A DNA stretch of 17,025 nt, taken from positions 1-17,025 of the forward strand of contig JAGQIY010000071.1 of NCBI GenBank assembly GCA_020430865.1, given 5' to 3'. The position numbers and the translations under genes are program-made. Below, in pieces: positions 1 to 16,119 of this stretch (position 1 is its first letter; each line of letters starts with the position of its first letter). Origin of the DNA: Myxococcales bacterium (GTDB lineage Bacteria; Myxococcota; Polyangia; Polyangiales; Polyangiaceae). The notes beneath the pieces are model-generated. The model saw only the letters and a list, made by a program, of their open reading frames with translations. It searched no databases and had not been told where the DNA came from.

Positions 1-863
1 AGCGCGTTCATCGGGTAGAGGATGAGCGCTCGTACGGCAGGCAGCGCGAAGGAGTCGGGCCGCTCGTGTGCTTCGTCGTAGAGGGAGCCGAGCATCGGCA
101 CGCGGAAACACTCCGTCTTTCCCGATCCTGTTCCCGTGGCGACGACGATGTCCTTGCCCTCGACGAGGAACGAGGTGAACGCGCGCTCCTGGTGTCCGTA
201 CATGCTCGGGTAGAGAATCCGCCGTTCGTCCTCCGGAGCGCTGGCTCCGGTCGGGGTTTCCGCCAACCCGGAGAAGAACTCGCCGACGTGGCTCGGTAGG
301 CCGAGCTCGTCGTAGCCATGAGGCGACGAGGCGTAGCGCGTGGTCGTCTCGATGAACGGCTCCTGGGCGAGCAGATGCCCCCCGGCCTCCGTCTCGAGCA
401 GTCGGCGGCGTGCCCGAACCAGAGTCGGATCGCTCAGCGGGTAGGCGCTCTCGATGTAGCCCCGAAGGGAATCGCTGAGGCGCTGCACGAGCCGCGTCGG
501 CGTGAAGCGGTCGTCGGTGATCGGCGGACGCTCGAGCGCTGGTGGGGGTGAGCTCGGCTTGGTCACGCGCACGCGTGGTCGAGGGCGCGAGCGTTCGATG
601 GGCTTCACCGGCGCGCTGGCTCGGTCGACCCATGCGGCGAGCGCCTCGTCTACGGCCGCGTTCATGCCCTCGAGCCGGTCACCGATGGACTCGGCGGTCT
701 CACCTTCCAGGAGCGCGTCGAGGAAGGCCGCAGACGCCTCGGTGACGCCGGTGAAGTCAAGGGTGGTGTCGGACTCGATCTTGCGTCGAAGGAACTCCGC
801 GTCCCCCACATCCTGTAGGCGCAGATCGTCGTCGGTGTACTTGGCGAGCTTGAGTGTCGTCAT
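1..863 (-). CDS. DEAD/DEAH-box helicase (DUF1998/DruE/DpdJ/DrmA-like), 3'-truncated by window
   Basis: N-terminal 287 residues of a superfamily 2 helicase that continues past the left window edge. The ATG at 863 overlaps the UvrD stop as ATGA and has a strong Shine-Dalgarno GGAGGAGG at 868-875, so the start is well fixed. Visible motifs: a Q-motif-like YGHQERAF (about 222-229), Walker A ATGTGSGKTE (242-251), then ILYPMNAL (281-288). The pair 'TGTGSGKTECF ... ALILYPMNAL' is typical of the large helicases associated with DUF1998, as in Druantia DruE, DpdJ and DrmA relatives. These act on DNA in defence or modification systems. Residues about 12-85 contain TTLDFTGVTEASAAFLDALL, which resembles the STAS-like DUF4325 fold, followed by a Pro/Arg-rich linker (about 84-113). 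The later helicase motifs and any DUF1998 domain lie outside the window. Helicase identity is firm; the subfamily and the STAS-like assignment are inference. Confidence 0.88.
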   Translation of the reverse strand, partial: MTTLKLAKYTDDDLRLQDVGDAEFLRRKIESDTTLDFTGVTEASAAFLDALLEGETAESIGDRLEGMNAAVDEALAAWVDRASAPVKPIERSRPRPRVRVTKPSSPPPALERPPITDDRFTPTRLVQRLSDSLRGYIESAYPLSDPTLVRARRRLLETEAGGHLLAQEPFIETTTRYASSPHGYDELGLPSHVGEFFSGLAETPTGASAPEDERRILYPSMYGHQERAFTSFLVEGKDIVVATGTGSGKTECFRVPMLGSLYDEAHERPDSFALPAVRALILYPMNA

Positions 864-2929
864 TGCGCCTCCTCCACGTGCCAGTCGTCGGTGTTCAGCT
901 CGAGAAGCGCTTCGTGCTGGCACCCTTCGGGTACGACGAGCATCAGTCCACGCATCGCGCGAGTGAGGCCCACGTAGAGAAGCCGGCGTTCATGGCGCAT
1001 GCGCTCGTCAAAGAGATCGGGATCGTCGAAGTCCTCGGCCACCGGGTACGTCCCGTCGTGGAAGCCCGCCGCCACGACGATCGGGAACTCGAGCCCCTTC
1101 GCGCTGTAGAGGGTGATGACCTTGACGACGTCGGCGGCGAGGTCGAGCTCGCGGCCTGGGAAATACTGCGCCGGCAGCCCCGCGTCGGTGAGCGACTGCG
1201 CCAGATTCTGCCCCACCGCGCCGGCGGGAACGAGGACGGCGGCGGCGCTTGGACGCAGGTGGAGGTGGCGCGACATCTGGCGCACGAAGCGCGCGATCCA
1301 CTCCGCCTCGCTCGCCTCGTCGACGCTGCGAACGAGCACTGGAAGCGGACCCTCGTGAACGCTGCTCGACGCCTCCAGCTTCTCGTCGGCCTCGGGTCGG
1401 AGCACCGCGAAAGCCGCGCGGTCGATTTCCTTCGTCGACCGGTAGTTCCGGCGCAGGACGGCTGTGCGACCTCGGAACTGCAGCCGAGGATGAACAGCAG
1501 ACCAGCTGTAGTTGCGCGAGTAGAGGGACTGCTTCGAGTCCGCGGCGAAGAAGAGACCCTCCGCGGTTCGGGCGACCTCCGCCATGAGGCCGAGGGCCGA
1601 CGGACTGAGGTCCTGTGCTTCGTCGACGAACACGTAGTCCCAGTGGCCGGCCCAATCATCGCTGCGGACGATGCCGAGCGCCTCGTTTCGCAGGGCCGGG
1701 AAACGCTCTCCCGACTCTTCCACGAATGCCTGGTGGAGCTCCCAGAGTGTCTCTCGAAGGCGCTCCGGAAATGCGACGCCGCGGCCCGGGCGAGGAGCTG
1801 CCTTGTACTCCTCGAGTGACCCGAGGTCTCGGCCGTCGATAATCCAGTCGAACTCCTCGAGCACGTACTTGTCGGACAGCCGAGCCAGGGCCCGCTTGCG
1901 GAGTTTCGCTTCGAAGGCCGATGAGGTAGATGGCGAGAAGGACTTCCGGAGCTTCTTCAGGCGCTTCAGAGCATCGTAGTCGAACTCGATCTTGGCGATC
2001 TTGCGACGGTCCGAGACGACCTCACGCGCGATCTGGTCCACCGTCGCGACGCGGACTCGGGCCATCTGGGCTGGGGTCAGGATCTGCTCCAGCAGCTGGC
2101 GCGTCACGGTCAGGAGCGCGCGGGTGTAGGTCGTGAAGAGCACCGTCTCCTCGCCGCTCGCCCCCGACCGTTCGAGGACCTCCTTCACCCGGTAGAGCGC
2201 CACGGTGCTCTTGCCGGTGCCGGCGCCGCCTCGAACCATCGTCGGCCCCTTCATCGCCCACCGCGTGAGGCGCACCTGATCCTCGTCGAGTCGCAGGAGG
2301 AAGCCCAGCAGGTCTCCCTCCTTGTACCGGACGAGATGCTCAGTGGACGGGACGACCAGATCGGGCTGACGAGCCACCGCCTCGAGGCTCGGTGGGTAGA
2401 TGGCGTCCAACACCTGCGCGAGCACGTCGCCCCCGATCGGAGCTTCGAGAAGGTCCTCTTCCGTCTTGCAGCGGAGCAGGAAGGGGAACGCCGACGCGGG
2501 GACGCTCTGCTCCTTGAGCCAGTCCTTGGTGATCTCGAGAGGCAGCGGCTTCGCCGTCGAGGCCGGTTCGAAGTTGAAGCTCACCGGCTCGGCCGGCTCG
2601 AGCAGCTCATCGAGGTCGTCGTCATGGTCGGGCGGCAGTTGCGGAGCGTCGTCGCCCTCCGGCATCGCCCGGTACGTGTCTTCCTTACGTCGCCGGACGC
2701 CGATCAGGCTGACCCAGTCCTCTCCGAACCGGTAGAACACGCGATGGTCGCCGACTCGGAGCCGGTAGATGCCGTCGCCCCCCTGGAGTTTCTTCTTCAC
2801 CTTCCCGTCGGGGAAAGGGTCGGTGACGAGCCAGTTGATCTTCTCCCACAAGGACGCGGCGCGGTCTGCCGGGAACGCCAGCAGCTCGCGCATGCATGTG
2901 GGCTTGATGGTGATCTGTCGTTTGCTCAT
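860..2929 (-). CDS. UvrD/PcrA-like SF1 helicase with N-terminal RelE/ParE toxin-like domain
   Basis: 689-aa two-part protein. Residues 1-90 look like a RelE/ParE-superfamily fold: FPDGKVKKKLQGG, then IYRLRVGDHRVFYRF, then LIGVRRRKEDTYR. The Arg/Lys/Tyr pattern matches RNase-type family members (R56, R58, R63, R79-K82, Y86). An acidic linker (about 91-130) and about 100 residues of unknown fold follow. The SF1 helicase core has Walker A GGAGTGKST (234-242), motif II FVDEAQD (434-440), motif III/IV-like AADSKQSLY and NYRSTKEI (495-502), motif V ITLYSAKGLEFP (605-616), and motif VI LLYVGLTRA (650-658). It should be an ATP-driven 3'-5' DNA translocase. The ATG at 2929 overlaps the upstream stop as ATGA and has Shine-Dalgarno AGAGGAGG at 2937-2944. 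No antitoxin gene is adjacent, so the toxin fold may be held inactive within the protein or may serve only as a binding module. The helicase is certain; the toxin activity is not shown. Confidence 0.93.
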   Translation of the reverse strand: MSKRQITIKPTCMRELLAFPADRAASLWEKINWLVTDPFPDGKVKKKLQGGDGIYRLRVGDHRVFYRFGEDWVSLIGVRRRKEDTYRAMPEGDDAPQLPPDHDDDLDELLEPAEPVSFNFEPASTAKPLPLEITKDWLKEQSVPASAFPFLLRCKTEEDLLEAPIGGDVLAQVLDAIYPPSLEAVARQPDLVVPSTEHLVRYKEGDLLGFLLRLDEDQVRLTRWAMKGPTMVRGGAGTGKSTVALYRVKEVLERSGASGEETVLFTTYTRALLTVTRQLLEQILTPAQMARVRVATVDQIAREVVSDRRKIAKIEFDYDALKRLKKLRKSFSPSTSSAFEAKLRKRALARLSDKYVLEEFDWIIDGRDLGSLEEYKAAPRPGRGVAFPERLRETLWELHQAFVEESGERFPALRNEALGIVRSDDWAGHWDYVFVDEAQDLSPSALGLMAEVARTAEGLFFAADSKQSLYSRNYSWSAVHPRLQFRGRTAVLRRNYRSTKEIDRAAFAVLRPEADEKLEASSSVHEGPLPVLVRSVDEASEAEWIARFVRQMSRHLHLRPSAAAVLVPAGAVGQNLAQSLTDAGLPAQYFPGRELDLAADVVKVITLYSAKGLEFPIVVAAGFHDGTYPVAEDFDDPDLFDERMRHERRLLYVGLTRAMRGLMLVVPEGCQHEALLELNTDDWHVEEAQ

Positions 2930-3942
2930 GCCGGCGCCTCCTCTTTGATGTCGAGCCCAAGGCGGCGGCTGAGCGTGTCGAACACATCGTCAACGCGAGA
3001 GAGGGGGATCGACCATTGTTGTTGGTTCTCGATTCGTGATGGGGAGGCGAGAGACGACAGGTACCGATATTCGGCGCGCGGTAGCCACTCGCGGAGTCGA
3101 AGATGGGCGAAGGCGTCGTCGCGAACGACGGACGCCGAGACGGATTGGCCGGCCTCTCGCGCCACGGCGAAGAGCGTACGGTTTGCGTCGTCGGCGAAGA
3201 GCGTCACGAACGCGTCGGTCGAAGGCGTGCCGCCCGCAGTCCCCCACGCCCAGATCCAGCGACCGTAGGACGTTCGAGCGCGCCACAGTCGAGTGGGCTC
3301 ATTCGAATTCCGGCGCCATCGAGGTCCGTCGGCCGTCAGGGTGAGGCTCTGCCAGTCGAGCGCCCCGTCGCGCTCGAGGCTGCCCGCCGCTTCGGGACGC
3401 CACTCCAACCGCTGGTCCAGGTTGTCGAGCCAGGCGCCGTCGGCGACAGGCGTCAGGTCGAGGCCGGCCCATGCTTGGGGCGACACGACCACGCCTCCCA
3501 GTGCTTGGAGGGCGGCCGCAACCTCCGGCTCCGTGTTGGGATCGAAGCGATGGAGCCGTCGCAGACCATCAACGTGGAGCTCGCCCGGTAGACTGGCGCG
3601 CAATCGACGGCTGGGAAGGCTGCACACCATCCGGTGCACACCCGCCTGGAGCTCGATCGCTCGGACAGGGCTGACGTTGAGCACGCCACCGCTCGACGCG
3701 GTGAGGTCGCCCTCGTACTCCAGGCCATCGCAGAGTTCCCGCAGACGCGCGCGACTCTGGTCCGCATCGTCATCTCCGAGTGCCTGCTCCAATCGACGCA
3801 GAGCCGTCCAACGAGGACAGCTTCCACGTGCAGTCACCTCGGCACGAATGAGGTCCGAGAGGGTCTCGTCCTGGCCGAAGTCGCCCCACCGCGCGGCGGA
3901 GCGAGCAGCAACCTGTTCTTGTGGAACGACCGTCGGCTTCAT
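2926..3942 (-). CDS. Unrecognised 338-aa operon protein
   Basis: No family recognised. The first 90 residues are charged and probably helical, with LSDLIRAEVTAR (28-39) and a second helix-rich stretch (45-75) before a short hydrophobic LNVSPV segment, which could be a winged-helix-like module. The middle and C-terminal parts look mixed alpha/beta, with a tryptophan-rich stretch TRLWRARTSYGRWIWAWG (217-234). There is no signal peptide, membrane segment, cysteine cluster or nucleotide-binding motif, so it is probably a soluble cytoplasmic partner of its neighbours. The ATG at 3942 shares one base with the preceding stop (TGATG) and is 7 bases after GGAGG. A GTG at 3945 in the same frame would give 339 aa but lies only 4 bases from that site, so ATG is preferred. 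The 3' end overlaps the UvrD start by four bases and carries its ribosome site, which implies coupled translation and perhaps fixed stoichiometry. Confidence 0.85.
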   Translation of the reverse strand: MKPTVVPQEQVAARSAARWGDFGQDETLSDLIRAEVTARGSCPRWTALRRLEQALGDDDADQSRARLRELCDGLEYEGDLTASSGGVLNVSPVRAIELQAGVHRMVCSLPSRRLRASLPGELHVDGLRRLHRFDPNTEPEVAAALQALGGVVVSPQAWAGLDLTPVADGAWLDNLDQRLEWRPEAAGSLERDGALDWQSLTLTADGPRWRRNSNEPTRLWRARTSYGRWIWAWGTAGGTPSTDAFVTLFADDANRTLFAVAREAGQSVSASVVRDDAFAHLRLREWLPRAEYRYLSSLASPSRIENQQQWSIPLSRVDDVFDTLSRRLGLDIKEEAPA

Positions 3943-6680
3943 CACACGCCCTCCGCCACGTCACGAAGGAACGCGATGAGCAGCTCGTCCTGCGCGAGGA
4001 CCTCGTCCAGCTCCCACACTTTCAACGGCAGTCGGCTGCGCCTGCGATGCTCTGCCCAGGACAGTCCGGTGCTGATGAGCGCGTTGTCGACACCGAATCG
4101 CAGGCACACGCCGTCAATCCAGTCGAGCAGCTCTTCGCCCAGCTCGGCCTGCAGCTCTTCGAGCATCACGAGGACTCGCTTGCAGCGGCGCCCGATCCCA
4201 TCTGCGCGCCTCTCTGTGACCAGGAGCCGGGCAGCTGCGGCGTGCACTGGCGGCTCTTCCGGAAGTTCCGCGACCGTCTCTACCTCGTAGCCGAGGCATT
4301 GCCCGACGGGCTCGAACCACATCGGTAGCAACTGCGTGAAGGCCCCAGCACGGCGCCGAACGAAGTCGCCCTTGGTCCTAGCCAATTCGCCAAGAACCGA
4401 GCCCACGCCTTGTACCGTTGCGTGCCGCTCGTGTTCCAGCACAAGCGAGCCGAGCTCTCCACAGTCCAGCACCAGGTCGCCCAAGAGACGCCGCTCCCGG
4501 CGTTCTCGCGTGAGACTGAAGAGACGCGGGACGTCCAACTGCCCCGTTGCGTCCAGTTCGAGGGTCGCGAGGTAGTCGTCGGTGACTTCACGCCAGAGCA
4601 CGCGAACGGCCCATCCGGGCGGCCCTTCAACGGCCACCTCGTCTTGCGCCAGGAGCGCGAGGTCCCCGCGCCAAGCACGCGTCACGGTGTTTGGCGCACC
4701 CGCAGTCGATTCGCCCGCGACGTTGGTCCCCAACGATGCATCCGGCGGAGCTGCCAGGTCCGCCGCGACCTCGAACGGCAGATGCGCCGGTTGAACCCGG
4801 GTTCGCTGATGCAGAAGCGTGCAGAAATACTGCCCAGTGGACAGGCCCGACAGCTCGACGGTGGCCGTCGAACCCGCAGGCAGCGACACGCGGCGCGGGC
4901 CGCCCGGACCGTGTACGAAGAGCTGGGCCTCGTCGTCGACCTCGGCCTCGTACCCGTCAACGGAGACGAGCACCGACGTCGAACCGTTCTCTCCGGCCGC
5001 GAAGGTGGCGAAGCCCTCACCCCTGAGGGTGGAGCGCCACTCGTCGGGCCAGCTTGCCAACGCGAACGAGAGTGAGGGGGTGAGGTCTCCGAGGCGGAAG
5101 CCGAGCTTCTCGAGGTCGTCCACCAGCTCGGGGCGTGGCTCGGAGGGCAGCGCGAGCTCGGCGAGGTGCCACCCATCTGAGAGTTCGCTTGTCGGCATCG
5201 AGCAGTCGACGCTCTCCCACACCTCAGAAGGAACAAGCAGTCGATACGCCTGACCAGGAGAGAGATGGTCCCCAGAGAGCAGCTTGCCGACGCCGTCTGC
5301 GCCCACGCGAAACGCACTGACTCGATCGGTCGGCACGCCGGGGACGTCGAGGGCGGACAGGTCGACGTCTGGATCGTCCTCGAAGCCCTCCGCGCCCCAG
5401 GTCCACGCGCCATCCGACGCCAGCACAGCGACGCGCACAGGCCGCAGCCTCGCGTTGGATGCCAGCGTCTGCTTCGTTTCGCCTGTCGCCGCGCGTGCTA
5501 CGAGGACCTTCACGAACTTCCAGAGTCCAATCAGCGGCCCGATCTCGAGGTGCAGCCCGCCCGAACCGGCATCGAGGCAGACGACCTGGCTGTTCCACAC
5601 GCTGGTATCCGGCTGCTCTTCCTCGTTCTCCGTCGCGGCTGGTTGGGCCTCAAAGAAGCGCGACGCCCGTTCCGACAGGCGCTCGTGGACTCGCTCGAGC
5701 GCATCTTCGTTGTCCAGGTCGCGCCGGCCTTTGCGCCGCAGCGGCTTCGGTCGCCGGGCGTACTCGTCTGGGGAAAGGGGCTGGATGACCTTGGCAACGA
5801 CCGTCAGTGCTTCTTCGTCTTCGACCTGAAGCTCGATGTCGGGGTAGCGCTCCTTGTCGGGGTTGAGCGAGACTAGGTTGATCTGGTGGTGGCGTCCTTC
5901 CGCGTCACGCTGGTCCGCCACGTACTTCTTGACCGCGTAGCTCCCGGTCTCTGGATCGCGGAACGAGCCTCGCACGAGCACGCTCAGCAGCTGCTTAGTA
6001 CCCGAAGGCCAGAGCTCGAAGATGGCATAGCCGCCGTCGACGAGGCCGCTGCGCCCGTCGTCCATGCTGTGCCCCTCGATCTGCGCGACGAACATCCGCG
6101 AGTTCAAGCGGCGTCGGCTCGAGACGCGGATCCAGCCGAGCGTCTCGATCATCTGCTCCTGAGCATCCGGACCCCACTCACCGGCAGGTTCGGATGCTGC
6201 CGCTGCCTTGAGGCTGTGGACCGGGAGGTGCGTCGTGTACCTCTCCAAGTCACCGACCTCGTCCTCGATCACCGGCTGCCTGGAAAGCTCGGACGCCGCG
6301 AGCCGCACTTCATCGCCCTGCAGGACGAAGCGCGGGTCCCCAGGACAGAACACGCACCGCCGGCCGAACAGCCCTCCGACCACATCGAGGCTCTTGTTGA
6401 GGTTGGCGCTTCCCCTGCGCTGTGCGTGCAGCTCTCGATGGAGCGCGTCATTACCGAGCAGGTCCTCGGCGCGCATCCACCGGCCCCAGGGAGTCTGACG
6501 GAAGCGAAGGTCCTCACGCAGCCGAGCGTCCTGGCCAAGTTCCCAGTGGGACGATCGGAGCAAGTCGCCCTCACGCAAGGTGACAATGGAACTCGCGAGG
6601 CGCCCAAGGACGGCATCAAATGACGCCCTGGGGGGCTTTCTCAGACCCCACGTGACCTTGTCAAATGCAGTCGCCGCCAC
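3942..6680 (-). CDS. 912-aa protein with LexA/S24 peptidase-like domain
   Basis: Large protein with a recognisable S24 (LexA/UmuD/phage repressor) peptidase-like domain at about residues 150-300. It runs from HLPVHSLKAAAA (151-162) and an Ala166-Gly167 dipeptide, through FVAQIEGHSMDDG (197-209, Ser205 in the nucleophile position), to SYAVKKYVA (247-255, Lys251 as general base), then INLVSLNPD and VVAKVI. The order and spacing match the Ser/Lys dyad fold: Gly167 to Ser205 is 38 residues, against 34 in E. coli LexA. The N-terminal 150 residues are unknown and include RFRQTPWGRWM and CVFCPGDPRF. Residues 300-350 are very charged. Residues 550-640 look beta-rich, perhaps Ig-like, and the C-terminus is helical. 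No HTH is evident, so this is not an ordinary repressor. The GTG start is chosen because AGGGG (6686-6690) sits 5 bases upstream and it begins 8 bases after the methylase stop. A TTG at 6746 would overlap the methylase by 58 bases. The role is unknown; damage or phage sensing by self-cleavage is conceivable. Confidence 0.85.
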   Translation of the reverse strand: MAATAFDKVTWGLRKPPRASFDAVLGRLASSIVTLREGDLLRSSHWELGQDARLREDLRFRQTPWGRWMRAEDLLGNDALHRELHAQRRGSANLNKSLDVVGGLFGRRCVFCPGDPRFVLQGDEVRLAASELSRQPVIEDEVGDLERYTTHLPVHSLKAAAASEPAGEWGPDAQEQMIETLGWIRVSSRRRLNSRMFVAQIEGHSMDDGRSGLVDGGYAIFELWPSGTKQLLSVLVRGSFRDPETGSYAVKKYVADQRDAEGRHHQINLVSLNPDKERYPDIELQVEDEEALTVVAKVIQPLSPDEYARRPKPLRRKGRRDLDNEDALERVHERLSERASRFFEAQPAATENEEEQPDTSVWNSQVVCLDAGSGGLHLEIGPLIGLWKFVKVLVARAATGETKQTLASNARLRPVRVAVLASDGAWTWGAEGFEDDPDVDLSALDVPGVPTDRVSAFRVGADGVGKLLSGDHLSPGQAYRLLVPSEVWESVDCSMPTSELSDGWHLAELALPSEPRPELVDDLEKLGFRLGDLTPSLSFALASWPDEWRSTLRGEGFATFAAGENGSTSVLVSVDGYEAEVDDEAQLFVHGPGGPRRVSLPAGSTATVELSGLSTGQYFCTLLHQRTRVQPAHLPFEVAADLAAPPDASLGTNVAGESTAGAPNTVTRAWRGDLALLAQDEVAVEGPPGWAVRVLWREVTDDYLATLELDATGQLDVPRLFSLTRERRERRLLGDLVLDCGELGSLVLEHERHATVQGVGSVLGELARTKGDFVRRRAGAFTQLLPMWFEPVGQCLGYEVETVAELPEEPPVHAAAARLLVTERRADGIGRRCKRVLVMLEELQAELGEELLDWIDGVCLRFGVDNALISTGLSWAEHRRRSRLPLKVWELDEVLAQDELLIAFLRDVAEGV

Positions 6681-6685
6681 TGAAA

Positions 6686-6690
6686 CCCCT
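6686..6690 (-). promoter_or_regulatory. Ribosome binding site that decides the GTG start of the S24 protein
   Basis: AGGGG on the coding strand, five bases before the GTG at 6680 and overlapping the methylase TAG stop. It favours the GTG over the upstream in-frame TTG at 6746. Confidence 0.6.
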
Positions 6691-9600
6691 AGCTTCCCGA
6701 GCCATCGCCGAGGAAGAAGGCCCCCGGCCAGCCACCTGCTGCACAAATCGCGCTCTCAATCTCCGTTGTCACCTCGCGCGTGCGTTTAAGCGCCCGAATG
6801 ATCTCAATGAGTCGCTTTACGTCTGCAGCCTCAAGAGGAATGGCTGGCTGAGGGGACCTGCCGCCAGTCGCCTTCCGACCCTTCAACCACTTCTGCAGCA
6901 CTGGATATCCGCCGATACGGAGTGCCCACAACTCCTCGCTGACCCCTCGAAAACCAGACGTTCTATCCTTATCGAGCCAAACCGAGTTGTCATGCCAGTG
7001 GGGGCGGACCACCGTTGTCGGCAGCGATCCCACGTAGCACACGGATTCGTCGTCAACAGGCGCGTCGAGCAGATGGCATTCCACCAGGGAGCGACCGAGC
7101 TCAATCAGCCTCTCAAACAACTCCCGACCCGCAGGAACCGGGATCCTGGGAAATCCTGAGCGGAGGTATTCGCCGTAGCGATCCCTGTAACCATCGCTAT
7201 ACAGAACCGCGTAGCAGTACTCGAGAATGTTCTCGGGAGTGTATCCTTCGGGCACTCCATGATTGCCGGCCCGGACGTCGATTCCGGCGCAGAACATCCG
7301 CAGGTGTTTCTGGTCTAGGTTTGGCGCGGCCCTGTCGACGAGCGCGAGCTCGCCCTGGGCTCCCCCGTCATCAGCTAGATACAGCGGGAATACGGTGCAA
7401 CTCCTTGTCGACTCTCCGGTCTTCATTTCCACAAGATGACGCGTCACGAATGCTGCGTCATTCGCGCCGGCGGCCTGAAGGCGAGCGGACACCAAGGCGA
7501 TGTTCGGATGAAGAAGGTGCCTGAGGGTTGGGTACTTCGCGTCTCCCTTCTCAATAATCTCTGGGTTGTAGTAGATCCAACGGTCGTCAAATGGCCGGTA
7601 GGTCACCCGCCTGACGAACTGCTCAATATCCGCCGCGGCCACGGTCTTCCTGGCGTCTTCGAAAGACCAATGCTTGGTATCCTTGATACCGTACTTGCGC
7701 CGGACCATCTCTAGGTCAGAATTTGTGGCGATATCCGTGAACCTGGCGATCACCTCGTTTCGGCTGAAGCCGATAAGGACCGCGTCACGGTGAGTTTTCA
7801 CGCCACACGAGTGAACTGGAAACAGCTCATTGAGTGACGGAAACCGCTGGTACTCGTCGAGATGGGTCTTGTCGAACGGAATGAAGAAGTACTTCGGTTC
7901 GATCGGTTCAAGTTTCGCGCGCGCCAGTGCGCTCACCGTGCCAGACAGTAGAGCGTCGTATTTTTCGCCTCGGGTGCCCCATACGTCCCGGTGCGCCACC
8001 TCGGATAGCGATGTCGATGTGCCCTGGGAAGCGCTTGCGCATACCGTGATGCTCACGCCCTGCTGAATGTCGAACACATTCTCATTGGACATTCCGCTTG
8101 GGGGCTTCTCGCCAACGTTTGAATCTCCATGAAGGTCGACAATGAACAGCTTGTCGAACTGCGTCAGGAGCTCCTGGCGCACTCCGCGGTGGATGACTCC
8201 CTTCAGGAAACCGTGATTGGTGACCATCCCCCAGAGTCCGCAACCGGATTGGCCCAGGAAGTACTGGCTGACCCGAATGAATTTGAGATAGTCGTCTGAC
8301 AGTGCGACGAGTCCCTGCTCCCCTCGAACATGCTTCTTGTAGTCGTTCATCAAAGCATCGATGAACGGGTTCGAGTTCGCACTCGTGACCGAGTACGGCG
8401 GGTTGCCCATCACGACGGTAAATCTGCCTTGTTCCTTCACGCGGTTGACTGCCTCAGCCTCCGCCGCGAGCGCCGGAAGCGAAAGCGAGAGCTGCTCGTT
8501 GCCTCCATGCGGTCGTTCAAGAGCGTTGGTGAGGTAGATTCGCGCCCGCCGCTCCTCCTCGAAGCGATAGCCCGTCTCGTGGAGCTTCAGGCCAATCTTG
8601 AGATGCGCTATCGCATACGGAGCCATCAGAAGTTCGAAGGCGTGCAGGCGGTCGAGCAATCCGCAGCCTGCCCAGTCACCACGGCCAGCGACGTAGTCGT
8701 TCCAAAGGCGGAGCCTTGCCTGCTCTGTTTGCGACGCCCATTCGCGTGTCATCGTTCGATGGATGACGTCAATGGCCTCTACCAGGAAGGTGCCTGTGCC
8801 GGTAGCTGGATCGAGGATCGAAACGAATGGTGAATTCGGGTCGGCGCCATCTGGAATTGAAATCTCGTGGTTCGCGGCGACCTCCTTCCAGGTACTCCAG
8901 TCAGCGAGACCGAGCCGAAGGCGAAACTCGCTCCTAAGAAGGTCATCGATACTACGAACGATGTTCGAAACGATGGGCCGAGGCGTGTAGTACACGCCTC
9001 TCTGAACTCGCTGTGCGCTGTCGTACGCAGCCAGAAAGTCCTCGAAGAAGTGAATCACGGGGTCTTTCCCCGCATGCTCGTCCTCCGAGTTGAAATCGAA
9101 CACGTGGCTGACGTCTACGCGCTCGAGTAGACTGGCAATGTCGTCAATCATCCACAGGTAGAGGCCCCCATCTGATTGACGGCGAATTCTGTCGATCCCG
9201 GCGAAAAAACCCTTCAAGAACGGGTTGGTTGCCGGAATCGATGTCAAAGCGTCCGATACCGTGAACGGGCCGTGTTTGTTCGTGTCTGCAGTGCGCTGTG
9301 CCCAGCGAGCCGTGAGGAGACCGTTGGTCACTGTTTGGGCGAACGCATCAGAAAACGCTCCCTCGTCCAGATCGTGCACAAGTCCGGACTGGAAGGCCTC
9401 GTACAGCGATCTCAGAGGCCCGTTTTCGCGCTCTAGGCGCAGTTGTCGAAGCGACAACGCACGCAAGTACTTGGCCCGCTTGGCGAGGCGTTCCGCTAGG
9501 TCCTTCGGGTTGCGGATCGACGCTTGGCTCACCAGGAAGAAGCGCGAAAGCAGGCTGAGTACCTTGCCCACTCCCTCGAACTGAGTGTTCTCACGAGTGA

Positions 9601-10720
9601 GGCGGCCTTTAAGCTGCTCAGTGCCGTGCCACAGCTCGATGACCGCGTCTCCGCGTTCCGGGTATACGATCAGCACGTTGTCGAAAGAGTTGAAGGAGCC
9701 GAGGCGCGCGCGTACGCGCTGTGCCTCTGCGCTGCTGTCAGCGCAATAGACCACATAGCCGAGAACCCTGGCCTCGCTGTCTCGAACCACAAGCCCCTGC
9801 AGCGGGTTGCTGTGATCTCCTCTTTCAATGTCCTCCGGGTTCGACGCTATGAAGTGGTCGTCGCGGAGGGTCTCGAACAGAAGTTGATTCCGGCGTCGAC
9901 CGTAGCTGGCCCCAACCTCGCGAAGCAATGCCTCGATCGCGGCCGTGATTCCCGATTGGGATGGAGCGTCCGTTGCGCAGGCATCGAGAAGGCGCGACGC
10001 CTTCCGACGGTGTTCGCCCGTGACGAAAGCATCTTGCCACCGTTCCCCGCGACTCAAGGGAAAGATGTGCCGCGTATAGAAGATCTCGAAGTGCTCGCGT
10101 GCGATCGAAGGATCCCAATCCCGAGCGGCCTCGTAGAGCGCGAATGCTTCGAAGCTAGCGGTTTCCATACAGACGGCGCCAAACGCAAGTACCTGACGTC
10201 GACGGTCGGGTAGCCCCTCTCGAACGGAGACGACAAAGAGAGTGTCCTCCCTCGTTCCTTGCGGCATGTCTGCCGTGCGTCTCGATCCTCCTCGAGCGAA
10301 CCAGTTCAGTCCGTCGGCAACCAATCGGAACAACTCGTCTTCAAGGAGTCCGAGTTCTCGGATGCTGCGACGAGGACTGGTTGCGAGCAGCGAGGATGCT
10401 TCTGACCCAAGCCGAACGAGTACAATGTGGAATGGGCGCTGGGCTGTCTTTCGCCAGTAATAGGCGCCAGGCTCGTACAGTTCGGCGAGCTTCTGACGAT
10501 CAGATTCGCTAGCTGTAAGGAGTACGCGGTCCAGCGGCTCCTGCTGGCCTTCGCCGAAGCACTGCACAAGCACCTGCCGTGCTAGGTCCCCATCGCTGGA
10601 ATCCGCTGTAAGTGCGTGGTTTTCGAAGGTGTCAAAGCCGGCGATCATGCTGGCCGGTTCGGAAGTGACCGAGGACGCACCGTTCATCAGGATTTGTACG
10701 AAGTCTTCCTTCTTCAGCAT
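6689..10720 (-). CDS. Adenine-N6 DNA methyltransferase, type ISP-like (LlaBIII-type methylase plus TRD), no nuclease seen
   Basis: 1343-aa protein whose C-terminal two thirds match the methylase/specificity half of type ISP restriction enzymes. Motifs: LAERLAKRAKYLR (408-420), FSDAFAQTVTNGLLTAR (456-472), motif X RGVYYTPRPIVSNIVRSID (574-592), SAM-binding motif I ILDPATGTGTFL (635-646), catalytic motif IV NPPY (773-776), then a target-recognition region with YRPFDDRWIYY (1041-1051) and YRDRYGEYLRSGFPRIPVP (1178-1196). It should transfer methyl from SAM to adenine N6 in an asymmetric site. The N-terminal 430 residues replace the Mrr-type nuclease and helicase of classical ISP enzymes. I see no PD-(D/E)xK motif there, so cutting would have to come from another protein. 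The ATG at 10720 overlaps the helicase stop by 7 bases (ATGCTGA) and follows GAGGAA at 10723-10728. GC is visibly lower than in its neighbours (31/60 at 7681-7740, 33/60 at 9001-9060), which suggests separate ancestry. Confidence 0.93.
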   Translation of the reverse strand: MLKKEDFVQILMNGASSVTSEPASMIAGFDTFENHALTADSSDGDLARQVLVQCFGEGQQEPLDRVLLTASESDRQKLAELYEPGAYYWRKTAQRPFHIVLVRLGSEASSLLATSPRRSIRELGLLEDELFRLVADGLNWFARGGSRRTADMPQGTREDTLFVVSVREGLPDRRRQVLAFGAVCMETASFEAFALYEAARDWDPSIAREHFEIFYTRHIFPLSRGERWQDAFVTGEHRRKASRLLDACATDAPSQSGITAAIEALLREVGASYGRRRNQLLFETLRDDHFIASNPEDIERGDHSNPLQGLVVRDSEARVLGYVVYCADSSAEAQRVRARLGSFNSFDNVLIVYPERGDAVIELWHGTEQLKGRLTRENTQFEGVGKVLSLLSRFFLVSQASIRNPKDLAERLAKRAKYLRALSLRQLRLERENGPLRSLYEAFQSGLVHDLDEGAFSDAFAQTVTNGLLTARWAQRTADTNKHGPFTVSDALTSIPATNPFLKGFFAGIDRIRRQSDGGLYLWMIDDIASLLERVDVSHVFDFNSEDEHAGKDPVIHFFEDFLAAYDSAQRVQRGVYYTPRPIVSNIVRSIDDLLRSEFRLRLGLADWSTWKEVAANHEISIPDGADPNSPFVSILDPATGTGTFLVEAIDVIHRTMTREWASQTEQARLRLWNDYVAGRGDWAGCGLLDRLHAFELLMAPYAIAHLKIGLKLHETGYRFEEERRARIYLTNALERPHGGNEQLSLSLPALAAEAEAVNRVKEQGRFTVVMGNPPYSVTSANSNPFIDALMNDYKKHVRGEQGLVALSDDYLKFIRVSQYFLGQSGCGLWGMVTNHGFLKGVIHRGVRQELLTQFDKLFIVDLHGDSNVGEKPPSGMSNENVFDIQQGVSITVCASASQGTSTSLSEVAHRDVWGTRGEKYDALLSGTVSALARAKLEPIEPKYFFIPFDKTHLDEYQRFPSLNELFPVHSCGVKTHRDAVLIGFSRNEVIARFTDIATNSDLEMVRRKYGIKDTKHWSFEDARKTVAAADIEQFVRRVTYRPFDDRWIYYNPEIIEKGDAKYPTLRHLLHPNIALVSARLQAAGANDAAFVTRHLVEMKTGESTRSCTVFPLYLADDGGAQGELALVDRAAPNLDQKHLRMFCAGIDVRAGNHGVPEGYTPENILEYCYAVLYSDGYRDRYGEYLRSGFPRIPVPAGRELFERLIELGRSLVECHLLDAPVDDESVCYVGSLPTTVVRPHWHDNSVWLDKDRTSGFRGVSEELWALRIGGYPVLQKWLKGRKATGGRSPQPAIPLEAADVKRLIEIIRALKRTREVTTEIESAICAAGGWPGAFFLGDGSGS

Positions 10721-13700
10721 GTTTCCTCGCTCTCGGGCGATGGCGCTTCTCTGCGGGTCTGGCGACACGCACGACACCAGGGTTGAGGAGTCTCGTAGGG
10801 GGTCCCGTCGCTCGACCGCAGGCGTCGGAAGCCGAAGGTGGTCTCGATCTTGGGCTCGCCGTCCGCACGGGCACCGCACGAGGGGCAGCACTTGTGCATC
10901 CCGGGCGCATGCCCGCAAACGCCGCACTTGCGCGCGATGCCGCGGCGCTCGGCCCGCACCCGCGGCGGTTCCGGCAGGTCCAAAGACGCGAGCTGGAGGA
11001 GGCGGAAGCCTCGCACCTGGATCGAGCGGCGGTCGGCCTCGGCGCCGAGGAAGCCAGCGCTTATGGCGGAGGCGCCCTGCATCACGGGGCGTCCGATCTC
11101 GCGGCCGCGCTCCTCGAGCTCGACGCCGCCGTCGACCAGCCGCACTGCTGTACCGAGGAGGTCTTCTGCGGACAGGGGACGGGAGGCGTCCTCGGACCAG
11201 CCAAGGTCGGTTCGAACGTCGGCGGGGAAGGTCTTGCCGTCGAGGGCCAACCAGAAGTTGAGCATCGACTTCACGGGTTTGGCGGTCGTCCAGAGCCAGT
11301 GAGGAACGCCACCGTCGACCACGGGCTCCAGATGACGGGTGTACTCGGCAAGCTCCCCGCCTTTCCGGCCGAGCAGCGCCCACGCGACGATGGCGCTGGC
11401 ATCGCTGGCGGTGTGCTCCCGAAGCCAGCCATTCCAGTTGGACAGCCAGTCCGGCACGATGCCCCGTTCGGACATCAGACGTCGCAGTCGCTCCTGGTAG
11501 CCGGCCACGCGCTCGATGGCGCGATCCTTCTGCCAGACGTTGAGGGCGGAGATACCCTGATATCGGTAGTCAGCCATCCACTCGGCTTCGGCCCCGGTCC
11601 CCTGTTCGAGACCGAGCGTGAAGTCGATCGCCAGGGTCTTGTTGGCGATCCGCTCGCGCAGCTGCAGCTCCGCTTCGAGCTCGTCGGGCAGGAGCAGGTT
11701 GACCGTGACGGGGGCGGCATCCTGATGGTCGTGCCACCAGTAGCGGGGCACGGGCTTCTGGAGCTTCACTGAGAGGCGCTCGAGGTCCGGGAACGCGTCT
11801 GCCTCCTCGATTGCGGGATTGAGGCGGCGATCCACGCGGCCAGCGCGCTGGATCATGCGGACCGGGTTCCAGTGCACGTCGTAGTTCACGAGCAGGGCCG
11901 CATCCTGGAGGTTCACGCCCTCGGCCAGCACGTCGGAAGCGAGCAGGATGTCGATCGGCTCCTCGATCGCGCGGGTCCATCCTATGGTCCAGGCGTCTGT
12001 CTCCTCGCCCAGAAGGTCCGTGGTCGGCGAATTGGGGCGTACCGGACCGAGCCGGTAGTACGGAGCGAACGCGTTGATCGCGGCGTCGCGATCCTCGGTC
12101 TCGCCGCTCACCACAGCGGTCCGGGTGGTGAGGGCCTTGACGTCCTCTTCGGTGACCTGAGCCCCCACATCGAGGGCGAGCGTCTGCAGGGCGAGACGCC
12201 ATTCGTTGCGTTCTAGGTAGGCGGTCGCCCGCAGCACCGATTCGACGTAGGCGAGTGTGTCGGTGAACTGGGAGAACACGATCGCCTTCTGGTCGTCCCG
12301 GCGAGCGCGCAACAGGCGCGACACCAGGCGGCGCAACTTCGCGTCAGTGACGATACGAAGGCCCCACGTCGCCGAGGTAGGCCAGTCGATGCTGGACCCA
12401 CCAGCGATAAAACGACGCGGCCAGTCCTGCCGCTCGAAGCGACCGAACACGATGTCGGCGAGCCCCGGAGCAACAGCGAGCAGCGTTTGGAAGTCGGACT
12501 CCAGGTCTTCTCGCAGCTCCCAGAGCCGCTCAAGTTGCTCCCGTCGACCTCCGCTTTCCTCGTCGTCCAGTTCGAAGAGCTGCAGCTGTGGAGGAGCCGG
12601 GTCATCTGCACCCGCCGCCGGTCGGGCGCTCATGTGGGCCTTGCTCCAACGGGTGAGGAGCTCGCGAGGACGACATGTCGACACCTCGCCGGTCAGCAAC
12701 AGGTCGAGTCGGTCGCGTGCGACTCGGTCGAGCTGATCGATGCGTTGGTCGAGGTCACGGCCCAGCTCATCGGCGCGCTTGCGGTCGCCGAGCTCGTGGC
12801 AGAGGTTGAGCAGTTGCCGCAGGCGGTGGGCGTAGAGCGCGAGGAGGCGCAGCAGGGTGATCAGGAACGCAACGGGGGAGCTCTCGAGGCGCTTGAGCAC
12901 GAGGACGCGCTGAAGTCCGACCACCGAAGACGTTTCGGACGCATCGCGGACCCCGTCGCGAACGTCCGACCACATGTAGACCTTGAGCGACAGCGCCTGG
13001 GAGTGAGCCTCCGCGGCTTCGCCGGTGTCGAAGAGCGGCAGGAAGCGTGCGAGCACGTCGCGGGTGTCGTCGTAGACGTCCTCGTAGACCAGCTTCTCGG
13101 GTGGGGGAGCGTCCCGGCGGAAGAGGAGCTTGATGTTGGAGCCCTGCTCGCGCTCGATCTGCTTGCACAGTTTTCGAGAGCGCTGCACCACGATTCGGTC
13201 GAGAAGCTCGGAGGCGACCCGGACCTGGGGTGGCTTCGTGTCGGAGGCCTCCGCCATCATGGCCGCGCGGACGGCCTGTTGCTGCTCCTGGAGCAGCTTC
13301 TCCTGCTCCTTGAGGTAGTCACCGACGCGGGGGATCTGGACACCGAATTGGAGGTCGTCTCGGAAGTCGATGCCGATCGAAAATCGGGCATCGGCGCTCC
13401 CGTGGATGAGCGTCGCGGCGACATCTCCACCCTTGCCGCCACGGGCCTTCTCGATGCGCTCCTCGACGTCTCGCGGCACGCGTCCGCGGTAGCCATCAGC
13501 AGTCAGGTTGTCGTTGAACCAGAGCGGCTTCGAGAAGAGCAGCGACGCCTGCTGGCGCAGATCTTCCAGGCTGTTGTTGACCGGAGTCGCCGTCAGGAGC
13601 AGCACCTTGCGGCGGATGTCCTTGCGAGGCTGGAGCCGCAGCAGGTCGCGAAGCACTACCGTCCGCCTGGCCGCGACGGACCTGAAGTTGTGCGCCTCGT

Positions 13701-15336
13701 CGACGATCACCAGGTCGGAGAGCAGCAGGTGCTCCATGTCGCTCGGGCGATCGGAGGCGCCACTGAGAATCTCGCTCGAGGGGAGGATCCGCGAGAGCTT
13801 CGTGTGCGAGAGGACGCGAATCGTCGCGAGTGGCACACCCTGAGCTGCCAGCGGCGGAATGGCCTCGCGCTGCCAGGTGCTGACGACAGAGTTCGGCGCG
13901 AGCACGGTGATGCGGAACGGATCATCCGCAGCCGACTGCTGCAGCGCCGCGAGCCTATCCCGCCAGGCGTTGGCGTAGTGGACCATGACCGTGGTGGCCA
14001 CGTAGGTCTTCCCAAGTCCGACGCCGTCGCAGAGCATAGCGCCCGCGTAGTCTTCGAGCTGGGCAACGATGCGTTGTGCAGCCTGCCGCTGATAGGCTGC
14101 CGCCTGGTAGCGCTCGGCGTTCCCGTGGAGCGTGCGCGCCTCGCCGACCATCTGGCTGATGTGGCCCTGCAGGACCAGCCACGCCTTCTCGACGGGCGTG
14201 CACTCGTCGATCGAGCTGACCTTGCGGATCGTGGGGCGTTGGCAGACGGATCCGAGCAACGTGGCGACGTCGCGATCCCACTGTCGATGAGGGGAACGCG
14301 TCGACACCGACTCCACGGTGTCCCAGTGGCCCCATGCGTCGCCGGGTTGGACGTGTCCAAGCTCCGCATGCCCGCACAGGTGCAGGAGGGCCCCGGCGAC
14401 GACGCTGGCCGGCTGCTCGAAGTCGACCGCAAGCACCAGCTTGTCGTCTGTGGGCACGAGTCGACCGATGACACCCGCTTCCGGCGTGATCGTGTCCGAC
14501 GCTTCGGGTGCGTTCGAGAGCTCGTCGAGCTCCCAGTCGAACGGGACCTTGAAGACCAGGGCGAGATGCTCTCGAAGCTCGGGAAGCGAACTGCGCGGCG
14601 CCGCGGCGAACTCGTCGAAAGCACTCCACCACGTCTCGTCGGGGGGGGGCCGCGACTCCCGGCGCTGCCCTGTGACGAACCACGCCTCCGCAGACTCAGC
14701 TTCGCCACCAACGGCCCAGGTCGTGTCCGCAAGAGATGCCTCGATCGGGGCCGCGTCTTGCTCCGGACGAGACGGATGCCACTCGAATGGCTGCTCGTCG
14801 TCGGTCTTCGCAACCGCACCAACGAAACCACCGACGCGGAGTGCGAGCCCGATGAGGGCGTGCAGGGCCTCGGGCGTCAATGCGCCAGCAGCAACGGGCA
14901 GTGCCAGCGCCCGAACAGGCGACATCGCCTCCGGGTCGCACTGCAGCCAGTGTCGGCCGGACACTGGAACCGGGGACAACGGCAGGTCGAGCGCGATCTC
15001 GGAGGGGTGCTCCGGATCTTGCGCCATCTCGATATCGACCTCGCTCCCGTCCAAGGAAGCCGTGATCTCGAGCCCCGCCACCAGCCCGGCCTCGAGTCGG
15101 TGGTCGATCTCGGCGGCGGTCAGGTCATCGCGGCGACTGCCGGTGGATGATCGAACGGTGATGGTCGAGGCGGAGGCGTAGAACAGGCTGGCCAGGGAAG
15201 AGGCGAATCGGATCGCCTTCTCGGGCGACTCGAAGGTGAGGCGAAGCTCGGCGCGCACGCAGGACCTCGGCCCCCTCGCCGGGTTTCCGGCGGGGGCTCC
15301 TCGGAGTCCTGTGGTTGCTACCTGCTCGGCCATCAT
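10714..15336 (-). CDS. SNF2/HepA-family helicase with degenerate M78-like N-terminus and C-terminal zinc ribbon
   Basis: 1540-aa Snf2-type SF2 ATPase. Motif I LCDGVGLGKTYVAT (435-448), II VIVDEAHNF (543-551), III LLLTATPVNNS (579-589), IV KAIVFSQFTDTL (1017-1028), V ILLASDVLAEGVNLQ (1130-1144), VI RMIQRAGRVDR (1160-1170). The family translocates on double-stranded DNA. A long helical insert (about 660-960) separates the two RecA lobes. Residues 255-365 resemble an ImmA/IrrE (M78) metallopeptidase, with HLCGHAELGH (319-328) where the catalytic Glu of HExxH is Leu, followed by QWDRDVATLL. The C-terminus holds three CxxC pairs (1471/1474, 1484/1487, 1521/1524), probably a DNA- or protein-binding zinc ribbon. 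It resembles DISARM DrmD in being a SNF2 helicase beside an adenine methylase, but that equivalence is not proved. ATG codons at 15336 and 15333 are both possible starts; the ribosome site is modest (GGTGAGAG about 6 bases upstream of 15336). A C9 run encodes Pro230-232. Confidence 0.93.
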   Translation of the reverse strand: MMAEQVATTGLRGAPAGNPARGPRSCVRAELRLTFESPEKAIRFASSLASLFYASASTITVRSSTGSRRDDLTAAEIDHRLEAGLVAGLEITASLDGSEVDIEMAQDPEHPSEIALDLPLSPVPVSGRHWLQCDPEAMSPVRALALPVAAGALTPEALHALIGLALRVGGFVGAVAKTDDEQPFEWHPSRPEQDAAPIEASLADTTWAVGGEAESAEAWFVTGQRRESRPPPDETWWSAFDEFAAAPRSSLPELREHLALVFKVPFDWELDELSNAPEASDTITPEAGVIGRLVPTDDKLVLAVDFEQPASVVAGALLHLCGHAELGHVQPGDAWGHWDTVESVSTRSPHRQWDRDVATLLGSVCQRPTIRKVSSIDECTPVEKAWLVLQGHISQMVGEARTLHGNAERYQAAAYQRQAAQRIVAQLEDYAGAMLCDGVGLGKTYVATTVMVHYANAWRDRLAALQQSAADDPFRITVLAPNSVVSTWQREAIPPLAAQGVPLATIRVLSHTKLSRILPSSEILSGASDRPSDMEHLLLSDLVIVDEAHNFRSVAARRTVVLRDLLRLQPRKDIRRKVLLLTATPVNNSLEDLRQQASLLFSKPLWFNDNLTADGYRGRVPRDVEERIEKARGGKGGDVAATLIHGSADARFSIGIDFRDDLQFGVQIPRVGDYLKEQEKLLQEQQQAVRAAMMAEASDTKPPQVRVASELLDRIVVQRSRKLCKQIEREQGSNIKLLFRRDAPPPEKLVYEDVYDDTRDVLARFLPLFDTGEAAEAHSQALSLKVYMWSDVRDGVRDASETSSVVGLQRVLVLKRLESSPVAFLITLLRLLALYAHRLRQLLNLCHELGDRKRADELGRDLDQRIDQLDRVARDRLDLLLTGEVSTCRPRELLTRWSKAHMSARPAAGADDPAPPQLQLFELDDEESGGRREQLERLWELREDLESDFQTLLAVAPGLADIVFGRFERQDWPRRFIAGGSSIDWPTSATWGLRIVTDAKLRRLVSRLLRARRDDQKAIVFSQFTDTLAYVESVLRATAYLERNEWRLALQTLALDVGAQVTEEDVKALTTRTAVVSGETEDRDAAINAFAPYYRLGPVRPNSPTTDLLGEETDAWTIGWTRAIEEPIDILLASDVLAEGVNLQDAALLVNYDVHWNPVRMIQRAGRVDRRLNPAIEEADAFPDLERLSVKLQKPVPRYWWHDHQDAAPVTVNLLLPDELEAELQLRERIANKTLAIDFTLGLEQGTGAEAEWMADYRYQGISALNVWQKDRAIERVAGYQERLRRLMSERGIVPDWLSNWNGWLREHTASDASAIVAWALLGRKGGELAEYTRHLEPVVDGGVPHWLWTTAKPVKSMLNFWLALDGKTFPADVRTDLGWSEDASRPLSAEDLLGTAVRLVDGGVELEERGREIGRPVMQGASAISAGFLGAEADRRSIQVRGFRLLQLASLDLPEPPRVRAERRGIARKCGVCGHAPGMHKCCPSCGARADGEPKIETTFGFRRLRSSDGTPYETPQPWCRACRQTRREAPSPESEETC
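14641..14649. repeat. Nine-base G/C homopolymer inside the SNF2 helicase gene
   Basis: Nine consecutive G on the plus strand, read as CCC CCC CCC (Pro230-232) in the coding strand. Gain or loss of one base would truncate the helicase in its N-terminal fifth, so the tract could act as a slippage switch. Runs of this length can occur by chance in a GC-rich window this long. Confidence 0.9.
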
Positions 15337-15368
15337 CTCGTGCTCTCACCAATCCTTCCCGACCCCAC

Positions 15369-15566
15369 TCAGCCGTCTGTCTCTGTCTCGGACGCGCCAC
15401 CCGACCGCACCCACTCGTCGACCTCGGAGAGCTTGAACTTCCAGAGGCGGCCGATTTTGTGCGCAGGCAGCGCCTTCGACTCGATCCAGCGGTAGACCGT
15501 GTCGCGGGCGATTCCGAGGTGCTTGGCGACGTCCTCGACGGACGCCCACGGTTCTTGTTCCGACAT
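15369..15566 (-). CDS. Small excisionase/MerR-type helix-turn-helix DNA-binding protein
   Basis: 65-aa protein that is essentially one winged HTH of the HTH_17/excisionase family: VEDVAKHLGIARDTVYRWIE (10-29) is the helix-turn-helix, ALPAHKIGRLWKFKLSEVDE (32-51) the wing and following helix. The length is typical of such single-domain proteins. It is first in the operon, 32 bases before the SNF2 gene, with a GGAG ribosome site at 15574-15577, seven bases before its ATG. In defence loci such proteins often lead the operon and probably autoregulate it. Because a serine recombinase lies just upstream, it could instead act as a recombination directionality factor. The sequence does not separate these roles. 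The fold assignment is confident; the function is inferred from position. Confidence 0.92.
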   Translation of the reverse strand: MSEQEPWASVEDVAKHLGIARDTVYRWIESKALPAHKIGRLWKFKLSEVDEWVRSGGASETETDG

Positions 15567-15717: not shown

Positions 15718-16119
15718 CTACCCATCGACCTCGGCCTCTGGCCGCACCTCCGTCCACGCCGCCCGCTGATCGTCCCAGCACAGGCTGGCCAGCACCCGGC
15801 GCAGGGTGCGCTCCGTGACGGGCTCCCGCCCCACCGGGAACTCGAGGGCCAGCACCTCCTCCTGGATGTCCGGGGCGAGGAGCAGGAGGTTCATCAGCTG
15901 GGTCAGCCGGGCGCGGGTGAGCCCATGGCGGCGGGCGACGTCGGCGTAGTCCTTGTAGCGACCGGCCTCGATGTCGGCGGCGATGCGGTGGGCCAACGCC
16001 AGGCGGCGGGCGACGCGGGCGGGACGGCGCTCGGCGAGCTGACGCCGGCGGCGCTTCACGCGGGCCTGTGTGCGCCGCTGTCGGGGCCGGAAGGCGACCG
16101 TCTCGGCGTGCTCGGTCAT
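15718..16119 (-). CDS. Recombinase-associated small basic protein with ParB-like HTH
   Basis: 133-aa protein. The first 45 residues are very rich in arginine (VKRRRRQLAERRPARVARR), then DYADVARRHGLTRARLTQLMNLLLLAPDIQEEVL (58-91) forms a KorB/ParB-like helix-turn-helix, and the C-terminus is short. The ATG (16117-16119) overlaps the recombinase stop as ATGA, indicating coupled translation. I infer an accessory DNA-binding role in integration or excision, or repression of the recombinase. The reading frame stays open upstream to about 16839, opposite to no gene but inside the recombinase sequence; that extension is a GC-rich shadow, and the overlap start is preferred. No gene name recognised. 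Confidence 0.8.
   Translation of the reverse strand: MTEHAETVAFRPRQRRTQARVKRRRRQLAERRPARVARRLALAHRIAADIEAGRYKDYADVARRHGLTRARLTQLMNLLLLAPDIQEEVLALEFPVGREPVTERTLRRVLASLCWDDQRAAWTEVRPEAEVDG

Follow-up and report, generated by a model that had tools for sequence, protein, structure and literature searches.

A conserved multi-helicase operon with a probable Druantia-like core and a LexA-like S24 domain on a Myxococcales contig

Two published descriptions are close to the locus reported here. ARMADA type II has the gene order SNF2-methylase-YprA-RelE-UvrD, which is called strict in PMC12458937, and PMC11090510 refers to McrBC-associated, DISARM-like YprA cassettes, for which a legend names YprA, SWI2/SNF2 and PglX and further description is deferred. 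Here we analyse one entire contig of a Myxococcales bacterium (JAGQIY010000071.1, assembly GCA_020430865.1; 17,025 nucleotides, hereafter the window), on which an operon of related content is cut off at its YprA end. Taken jointly, the evidence makes it probable that the window preserves the 5′ end of a large defence-type operon that moves horizontally and has a core of Druantia I/II type. This core would comprise a DruE-type YprA helicase, a protein resembling DruD, and an S24 protein related in its C-terminal half to the product of the gene upstream of DruD. A RelE-UvrD fusion would be inserted into it, and an SNF2 helicase and a modification cassette open to exchange would precede it.

Seven tightly spaced co-directional genes lie on the minus strand with spacings of -7 to +32, as the original prediction had described, and their content bears out its view of a modification-linked, multi-helicase, defence-type operon. 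Read along the minus strand, the contig runs from the end of a serine recombinase gene and its 133-amino-acid (aa) companion through helix-turn-helix (HTH), SNF2, methylase, S24, 338-aa and RelE-UvrD genes to the start of a YprA gene. The operon features are as follows.

1..863, minus strand: YprA/DruE-type DEAD helicase, N-terminal 287 aa, truncated by the contig end (PDLC00013 DruE1, 165.3 bits; 91% to relative locus L001)
860..2929, minus strand: RelE/ParE-UvrD fusion helicase, 689 aa (PF05016, 25.4 bits; PF00580, 68.6; PF13361, 76.8)
2926..3942, minus strand: 338-aa protein, putatively DruD-like, with a winged helix at the N-terminus
3942..6686, minus strand: S24 protein, 914 aa, with an N-terminal region, a LexA-like S24 domain and a beta-rich C-terminal half
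5748..6251, minus strand: LexA/lambda-CI-like domain of the S24 protein, residues 146-313
6689..10720, minus strand: N6-adenine methylase with Type ISP specificity domain, 1343 aa, an apparently exchanged cassette of low G+C content (PF18135, 206.8 bits; PF07669; PF02384)
10714..15336, minus strand: SNF2/RapA-type helicase, 1540 aa (PF00271, PF00176; weak DrmD, HmaA and DpdE profiles)
15369..15566, minus strand: HTH_17/excisionase/MAD1-like DNA-binding protein, 65 aa (HTH_17, 63.7 bits; NF047737 MAD1, 70.3 bits, not reaching the cut-off of 80)

Gene order in relative loci

Species genomes were scanned with the S24-protein alignment by way of two short peptide patterns, which gave 13 loci. L013, a weak match to the S24 domain only, is excluded from all counts; L004 and L012 hold too little sequence for the downstream test, and L008 and L012 are separate contigs from a single metagenome-assembled genome (MAG). 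Downstream order was judged in ten loci (L001, L002, L003 and L005-L011), and all ten have the 338-aa, RelE-UvrD and YprA genes, in this order, behind the S24 gene. The hosts are Myxococcales/Sandaracinaceae MAGs, Ramlibacter, Xenophilus, a Desulfobacteraceae MAG and an Olavius-associated delta-proteobacterium, and thus span Myxococcota, Burkholderiales and Desulfobacteraceae. The original prediction had held that the extra genes are not passengers; the order kept in 10/10 loci across these groups sustains this.

A PD-(D/E)XK gene directly follows YprA in 8/8 loci whose downstream end was read (the domain in L001 and L011), and an SNF2 helicase gene, 60-73% identical, occupies the same position in 7/7 loci whose upstream flank was read. 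The methylase lies ahead of the S24 gene in 10/10 loci reaching that far (L007 and L012 being partial), and McrB and McrC genes are found by tblastn between the two in each of the ten loci that cover this stretch (L001-L003, L005-L007, L009-L012). In the window itself, two McrB and two McrC queries gave no match at E 0.1. The full operon comprises ten to eleven genes, of which the window carries a McrBC-less version.

Variation on this plan is seen at several positions. Four of the ten loci (L002, L003, L005 and L010) encode an extra protein of about 1500 aa between the S24 and 338-aa genes, which carries a second copy of the C-terminal half of the S24 protein and, in L002, a sacsin-type domain, and in L008 (2200-5511) the 338-aa homologue forms the front part of a 1103-aa frame. 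The small HTH gene is present in two of the seven upstream flanks read (L001, 89%; L006, 74%). Xenophilus encodes a WYL-domain regulator just upstream of SNF2 (L065 10058-11038), at the position of the HTH gene in the window, so that the operon regulator seems replaceable. The Xenophilus copy itself is probably decayed, since inserted DNA interrupts both its UvrD gene (about 0.9 kilobases, kb; L005 19285-20156) and its YprA gene (about 1.3 kb; L066 6913-8236).

Wider searches returned few full-length relatives. Neither the S24 nor the 338-aa protein matched any of 72,556 plasmid records, and a viral-contig scan with the S24 alignment gave 127 pattern matches, of which 0 were confirmed. Searches of 377, 299 and 192 genomes, which scored two to four candidates per genome and thus do not prove rarity, found the full-length S24 protein only in genomes from the first scan (G001 and G003; G002; G006, respectively). 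The remaining matches, in 15, 3 and 3 genomes, comprise the S24 domain or part of it only; tblastn of the operon proteins against these short loci recovered the S24 domain, short extra matches in L018, L027 and L041 and, in some, nothing. Partial matches are present in L018-L031, L033 and L034; in the 377-genome search they occur in 15/377 genomes, mostly in frames of more than 1000 aa. The L017 protein (7-1995), the one such protein that was read, ends in a LexA-like S24 domain and looks, on inspection by eye, like a restriction-type helicase of HsdR kind.

Resemblance of the core to Druantia, ARMADA and DISARM

Profile comparisons suggest that the 338-aa protein is DruD-like. With hhalign, its 31-row alignment scored 96.0% (E 3.8e-9) against a three-row DruD alignment, and its profile scored 96.9%, 68.3% and 19.3% against the single DruD sequences of L047, L045 and L046. 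The C-terminal half of the S24 protein (columns 444-748 of a 43-row alignment) scored 96.2% (E 2e-9; hhalign) against two aligned sequences, from Nitrosococcus and Sinorhizobium, of the protein whose gene lies upstream of DruD, and 93.9% against a single sequence of that protein; each profile-profile E-value refers to one comparison. The Nitrosococcus gene is flanked by DruA and DruD; its product, which has no existing model, takes the matching place in the operon. Crossed profile controls gave 0.15% and 0.06%, and DruB and DruC less than 2%. No match was found between the S24 profile and DruB, DruC or a 413-aa L047 protein, or between the 338-aa profile and DruC or a 588-aa Leisingera protein. 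Foldseek with the model of the 338-aa protein gave no match at E 0.001, in a fold comparison that barely covered the C-terminal two thirds of that protein and that, for the S24 protein, was essentially limited to residues 153-306 and 534-755. A Druantia-like set with DruD and the unmodelled upstream protein is carried by a Sinorhizobium medicae plasmid (L075 5516-14383), where the helicase annotation is fragmented around an IS3 transposase.

The helicase of the relatives points in the same direction. The full-length L001 protein scores 1574.9 bits over nearly the whole PADLOC DruE1 profile; E. coli ArmC of ARMADA type II scores 324.3 bits against the same profile. A YprA tree was built from 17 proteins, the partial L002, L007 and L008 having been left out of the 20 extracted, and does not include L006, whose frame is broken, or the unannotated plasmid loci L051 and L058. 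In it, the L001, L009 and L011 proteins join those of Druantia I/II-type loci (Pseudomonas, Nitrosococcus, Halalkaliarchaeum, Leisingera plasmids) with support of 100/100, and the Meiothermus DruE that adjoins a DruA gene falls in the next wider group.

These placements bear on whether the locus is a plain ARMADA type II operon with extra genes and its last two genes swapped, a reading that we judge quite unlikely. It would explain why all four ARMADA II gene types, the RelE-UvrD fusion among them, are present (PMC12458937; reference locus L044). Moreover, two Pseudanabaena plasmids match the window in the succession helicase, methylase, RelE-UvrD, YprA, with small genes intervening, and the Pseudanabaena YprA groups with ArmC (100/99) and has the N-terminal extension of about 95 residues that also distinguishes the window YprA and is absent from two Druantia I proteins. 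However, forcing the relatives' YprA together with ArmC and the Pseudanabaena proteins was rejected (approximately unbiased (AU) test, p 1.9e-5), in a test made after the tree had been inspected and whose references, one E. coli ArmC and two cyanobacterial proteins without ARMADA I, sit on long branches. By BLAST the SNF2 protein matches ArmA in short stretches only and the methylase does not match ArmB, and the UvrD gene lies ahead of YprA in the window and in 10/10 loci, against an order that PMC12458937 calls strict. The Pseudanabaena gene order and the shared extension suggest that a Druantia-type helicase body was acquired by an ARMADA-like locus, or that the acquisition went the other way. 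A STAS-like label for the extension is doubtful, as PF13466 STAS_2 reached 15.3 bits against a cut-off of 29.2, and STAS was not matched in the extensions of L009 and L011. The RelE-UvrD protein of the window is 26.9% identical to ArmD over 495 aa, 32-34% identical to the Pseudanabaena proteins and 33% identical over 701 aa to a fusion in a Deinococcus BREX locus. Near-identical ArmC genes of ARMADA type II (99.3-99.5%) were also seen on E. coli plasmids of 65-168 kb.

A relationship to DISARM class 1 is very improbable. The original prediction had left the choice between a DISARM relative with three extra genes and a separate modification-based system, and had proposed looking for DrmB and DrmC after the helicase; the second option stands, with two of the extra genes related to Druantia, and the first is not supported. 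What speaks for DISARM are the weak DrmD matches of the SNF2 protein (59.0 bits in PADLOC; 75.7 bits against a cut-off of 610). Against it, the best DrmA model scores 39.1 bits on the L001 helicase, far below DruE1, the helicases of L001 and L011 are each one piece including their own MZB/DUF1998 part and belong to the Druantia I/II-type clade, and the next gene is PD-(D/E)XK in 8/8 loci, DrmB and DrmC not having been sought further downstream. MADS (MAD1-MAD8) was rejected as well, the HTH protein lying below the MAD1 cut-off and mad2 and mad8 reaching 24.7 and 26.5 bits.

Modification cassette, probable mobile-element flank and LexA-like domain

The window methylase contains LDPATGTGTF and NPPY stretches. 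In Type ISP restriction-modification enzymes a single chain carries the nuclease, helicase, methylase and specificity domains; Pfam shows only methylase and specificity domains in the window protein, and a single-chain Type ISP assignment was rejected. The gene lies within a break in the homology to the closest operon:

6567..10698, minus strand: interrupted nucleotide homology to L001 (blastn, tblastn)

Homology to L001, at 77-79% nucleotide identity, breaks off shortly after the SNF2 stop codon (window base 10698) and picks up again at base 6567, a little way into the S24 gene (blastn). The interrupted stretch measures 4.1 kb in the window, with a 35%-identical methylase, and 8.9 kb in L001, with methylase, McrB and McrC. 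The G+C content of the window methylase gene is 0.587 against 0.663-0.672 in the neighbouring genes, and in 8/8 relatives measured the methylase lies below its S24 neighbour. Among the relatives, the first half of the methylase is near-identical in L003, L005 and L009, and in the second half L003 goes with L010 and L009 with L005 (alignment judged by eye); whole-length identities are 67% for L003-L009, 77% for L003-L010 and 94% for L005-L009. The specificity halves thus appear to have been shuffled among relatives. The homology break, the G+C difference and the shuffled halves therefore indicate that the modification cassette has been exchanged within a conserved frame, and that the exchange in the window omitted McrBC. 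The nearest relative of the window methylase found is 50% identical, in a search that scored only some candidates. S24 relatives at 92-93% identity exist on metagenome contigs of up to 100 kb, and no window-type methylase was recognised on their contigs, which is weak evidence because only some candidates were scored.

Such exchange could also be expected if two or three independent systems stood side by side and were co-transcribed, one a restriction unit of SNF2, methylase and, where present, McrBC and another resembling Druantia. The methylase-McrBC cassette has been replaced while both flanks are still 77-79% identical, and methylases move independently of S24, since L003, L005 and L009 share the first methylase half at S24 identities to the window of only 38% (L009) and 48-49% (L003 and L005). 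On the other side, SNF2 is in place in all seven upstream flanks, adjacent genes overlap slightly, and the methylase precedes S24 in every one of the ten loci that reach it. We regard separate systems as unlikely and continue to favour a single operon with a Druantia-type core and an exchangeable cassette.

Upstream of the operon, the window holds two further minus-strand genes.

15718..16119, minus strand: 133-aa recombinase companion (Pfam: no family matched)
16116..17024, minus strand: large serine recombinase, C-terminal 302 aa, running off the contig end (PF13408, 49.9 bits; PF07508, 23.9 bits)

The recombinase gene is likely a mobile-element flank outside the system. The pair is found in two of the seven upstream flanks: upstream of the L001 operon (recombinase 51%, companion 68%) and, in similar form, in the L010 flank (L071; recombinase 26%, companion 51% over 100 aa). 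An integrase gene lies upstream in L006.

The S24 domain has a predicted LexA-like fold in which the Ser-Lys dyad and cleavage region are kept. Ser207 and Lys253 are invariant in 43 sequences, and AASEP (163-167) stands at the place of the LexA cleavage site; the LexA counterparts are AAGEP, Ser119 and Lys156. The N-terminal region of the protein is predicted to form helices and strands, and a PDB sequence search with the S24 alignment gave no match. From this model, the domain may act as an SOS-type trigger of the operon, by way of a putative self-cleavage.

That the protein is simply a LexA-like operon repressor, derepressed in the SOS response and without a role in an effector complex, is possible but doubtful. 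A LexA-like domain with a conserved dyad behind N-terminal helices and strands is what such a repressor would show, and S24 regulators are common in mobile elements. Yet the C-terminal half resembles a Druantia-locus protein and has a second copy in the sacsin-domain protein that L002, L003, L005 and L010 encode, other regulators are encoded upstream (HTH in the window, L001 and L006; WYL in L005), and no shared LexA-type box was found in the upstream regions of the window, L001 and L006. Sigma-70 promoters and terminators were also sought around the start of the operon, and nothing was found or shared.

A candidate mechanism and comparison with known systems

The gene content, gene order, homologies, conserved dyad and cassette exchange are established here; from the protein families we infer an antiviral function, self/non-self marking, RecA-triggered cleavage and activation by cleavage. 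The methylase would mark host DNA, its variable specificity domain determining the site, and the SNF2 motor would act with it to pick out unmodified DNA. Single-stranded DNA or DNA damage, arising from the attack or from phage replication, could then trigger self-cleavage of the S24 domain, as RecA-single-stranded DNA does for LexA and CI. Cleavage would free or activate an assembly of the DruD-like, DruE and UvrD proteins, which would unwind DNA for the separate PD-(D/E)XK nuclease, with McrC where present, to cut. An RNase step might be contributed by the RelE-like part, as PMC12458937 predicts for ArmD. In its strongest form the scheme is less likely than not: a LexA-type domain fused to a Druantia-type subunit, cut upon RecA filaments, would arm a DruD-like/DruE/UvrD/nuclease complex, and the methylase cassette, with or without McrBC, would set self and non-self.

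Several results weigh against the favoured reading of a Druantia I/II-type core in a defence operon. The DruD match is weak with two of the single sequences (68.3% and 19.3%), and the PADLOC DruD models do not match the 338-aa protein at E 0.001. DruA, DruB and DruC gave no match in the window or in 28 relative loci, DruA having been searched with four DruA proteins (tblastn, E 0.1); the PADLOC DruA model likewise matched none of the proteins scanned. The clade of the window YprA is taken from its relatives (L001, 91%), because its own part is only 287 aa long. McrBC is absent from the window and the contig ends before the nuclease gene, so that the window need not hold a complete system. As regards the trigger, the putative scissile bond is Ala-Ser, not Ala-Gly, and lies 42 residues before Ser207, where in LexA the distance is 34, and the search for a common LexA-type box upstream of the window, L001 and L006 was negative. 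No defence assay for any member of the operon was found.

We found this set of genes in no named system, in agreement with the original prediction, whose comparison had left out ARMADA type II, the nearest published set (PMC12458937). No S24 protein was found in a Druantia, ARMADA or McrBC operon in the openly licensed literature, supplements not covered, and S24 or LexA terms are absent from the available portions of PMC12458937, PMC11090510 and PMC12839542. The gene combination is therefore a variant that we have not found described, and its LexA-like domain could prove to be more than that. The relatives reported here could belong to the cassettes of PMC11090510, in whose available text S24 and UvrD are not mentioned, and part of the group may be known to its authors, because McrBC with a DISARM-like set is mentioned there.

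With Druantia I/II the operon shares a DruE-type YprA of the same clade (L001, L009 and L011), a putatively DruD-like protein and the resemblance of the S24 C-terminal half to the DruD-upstream protein, and thus provides candidate homologues for the obscure gene DruD and its neighbour. Unlike Druantia I/II it lacks DruA, DruB and DruC matches and adds SNF2, methylase, a LexA-like domain, RelE-UvrD, a separate nuclease and, in the relatives, McrBC. ARMADA type II, as described in PMC12458937, likewise has SNF2, a large adenine methylase, YprA and RelE-UvrD in one operon; its ArmB (PglX/YeeA-like) and the window methylase are both of adenine-methylase type and gave no BLAST match to each other at E 0.001. 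The present operon differs in its YprA clade, in its A-B-D-C order and in the added S24, DruD-like and nuclease genes, with McrBC in the relatives. In the Deinococcus BREX locus (NZ_CP026518.1) a RelE-UvrD fusion also adjoins an N6 methylase gene (plasmid locus L057 15511-17532, with McrC and AAA ATPase genes nearby), but BrxC, PglZ and BrxL genes accompany it and no DEAD/DEAH helicase is annotated in the 36-kb stretch. If the proposed mechanism holds, S24 self-cleavage would be a directly testable trigger for helicase-type defences. Components of Druantia, ARMADA, BREX-type loci and McrBC are brought together in a single conserved operon whose modification cassette has been swapped.

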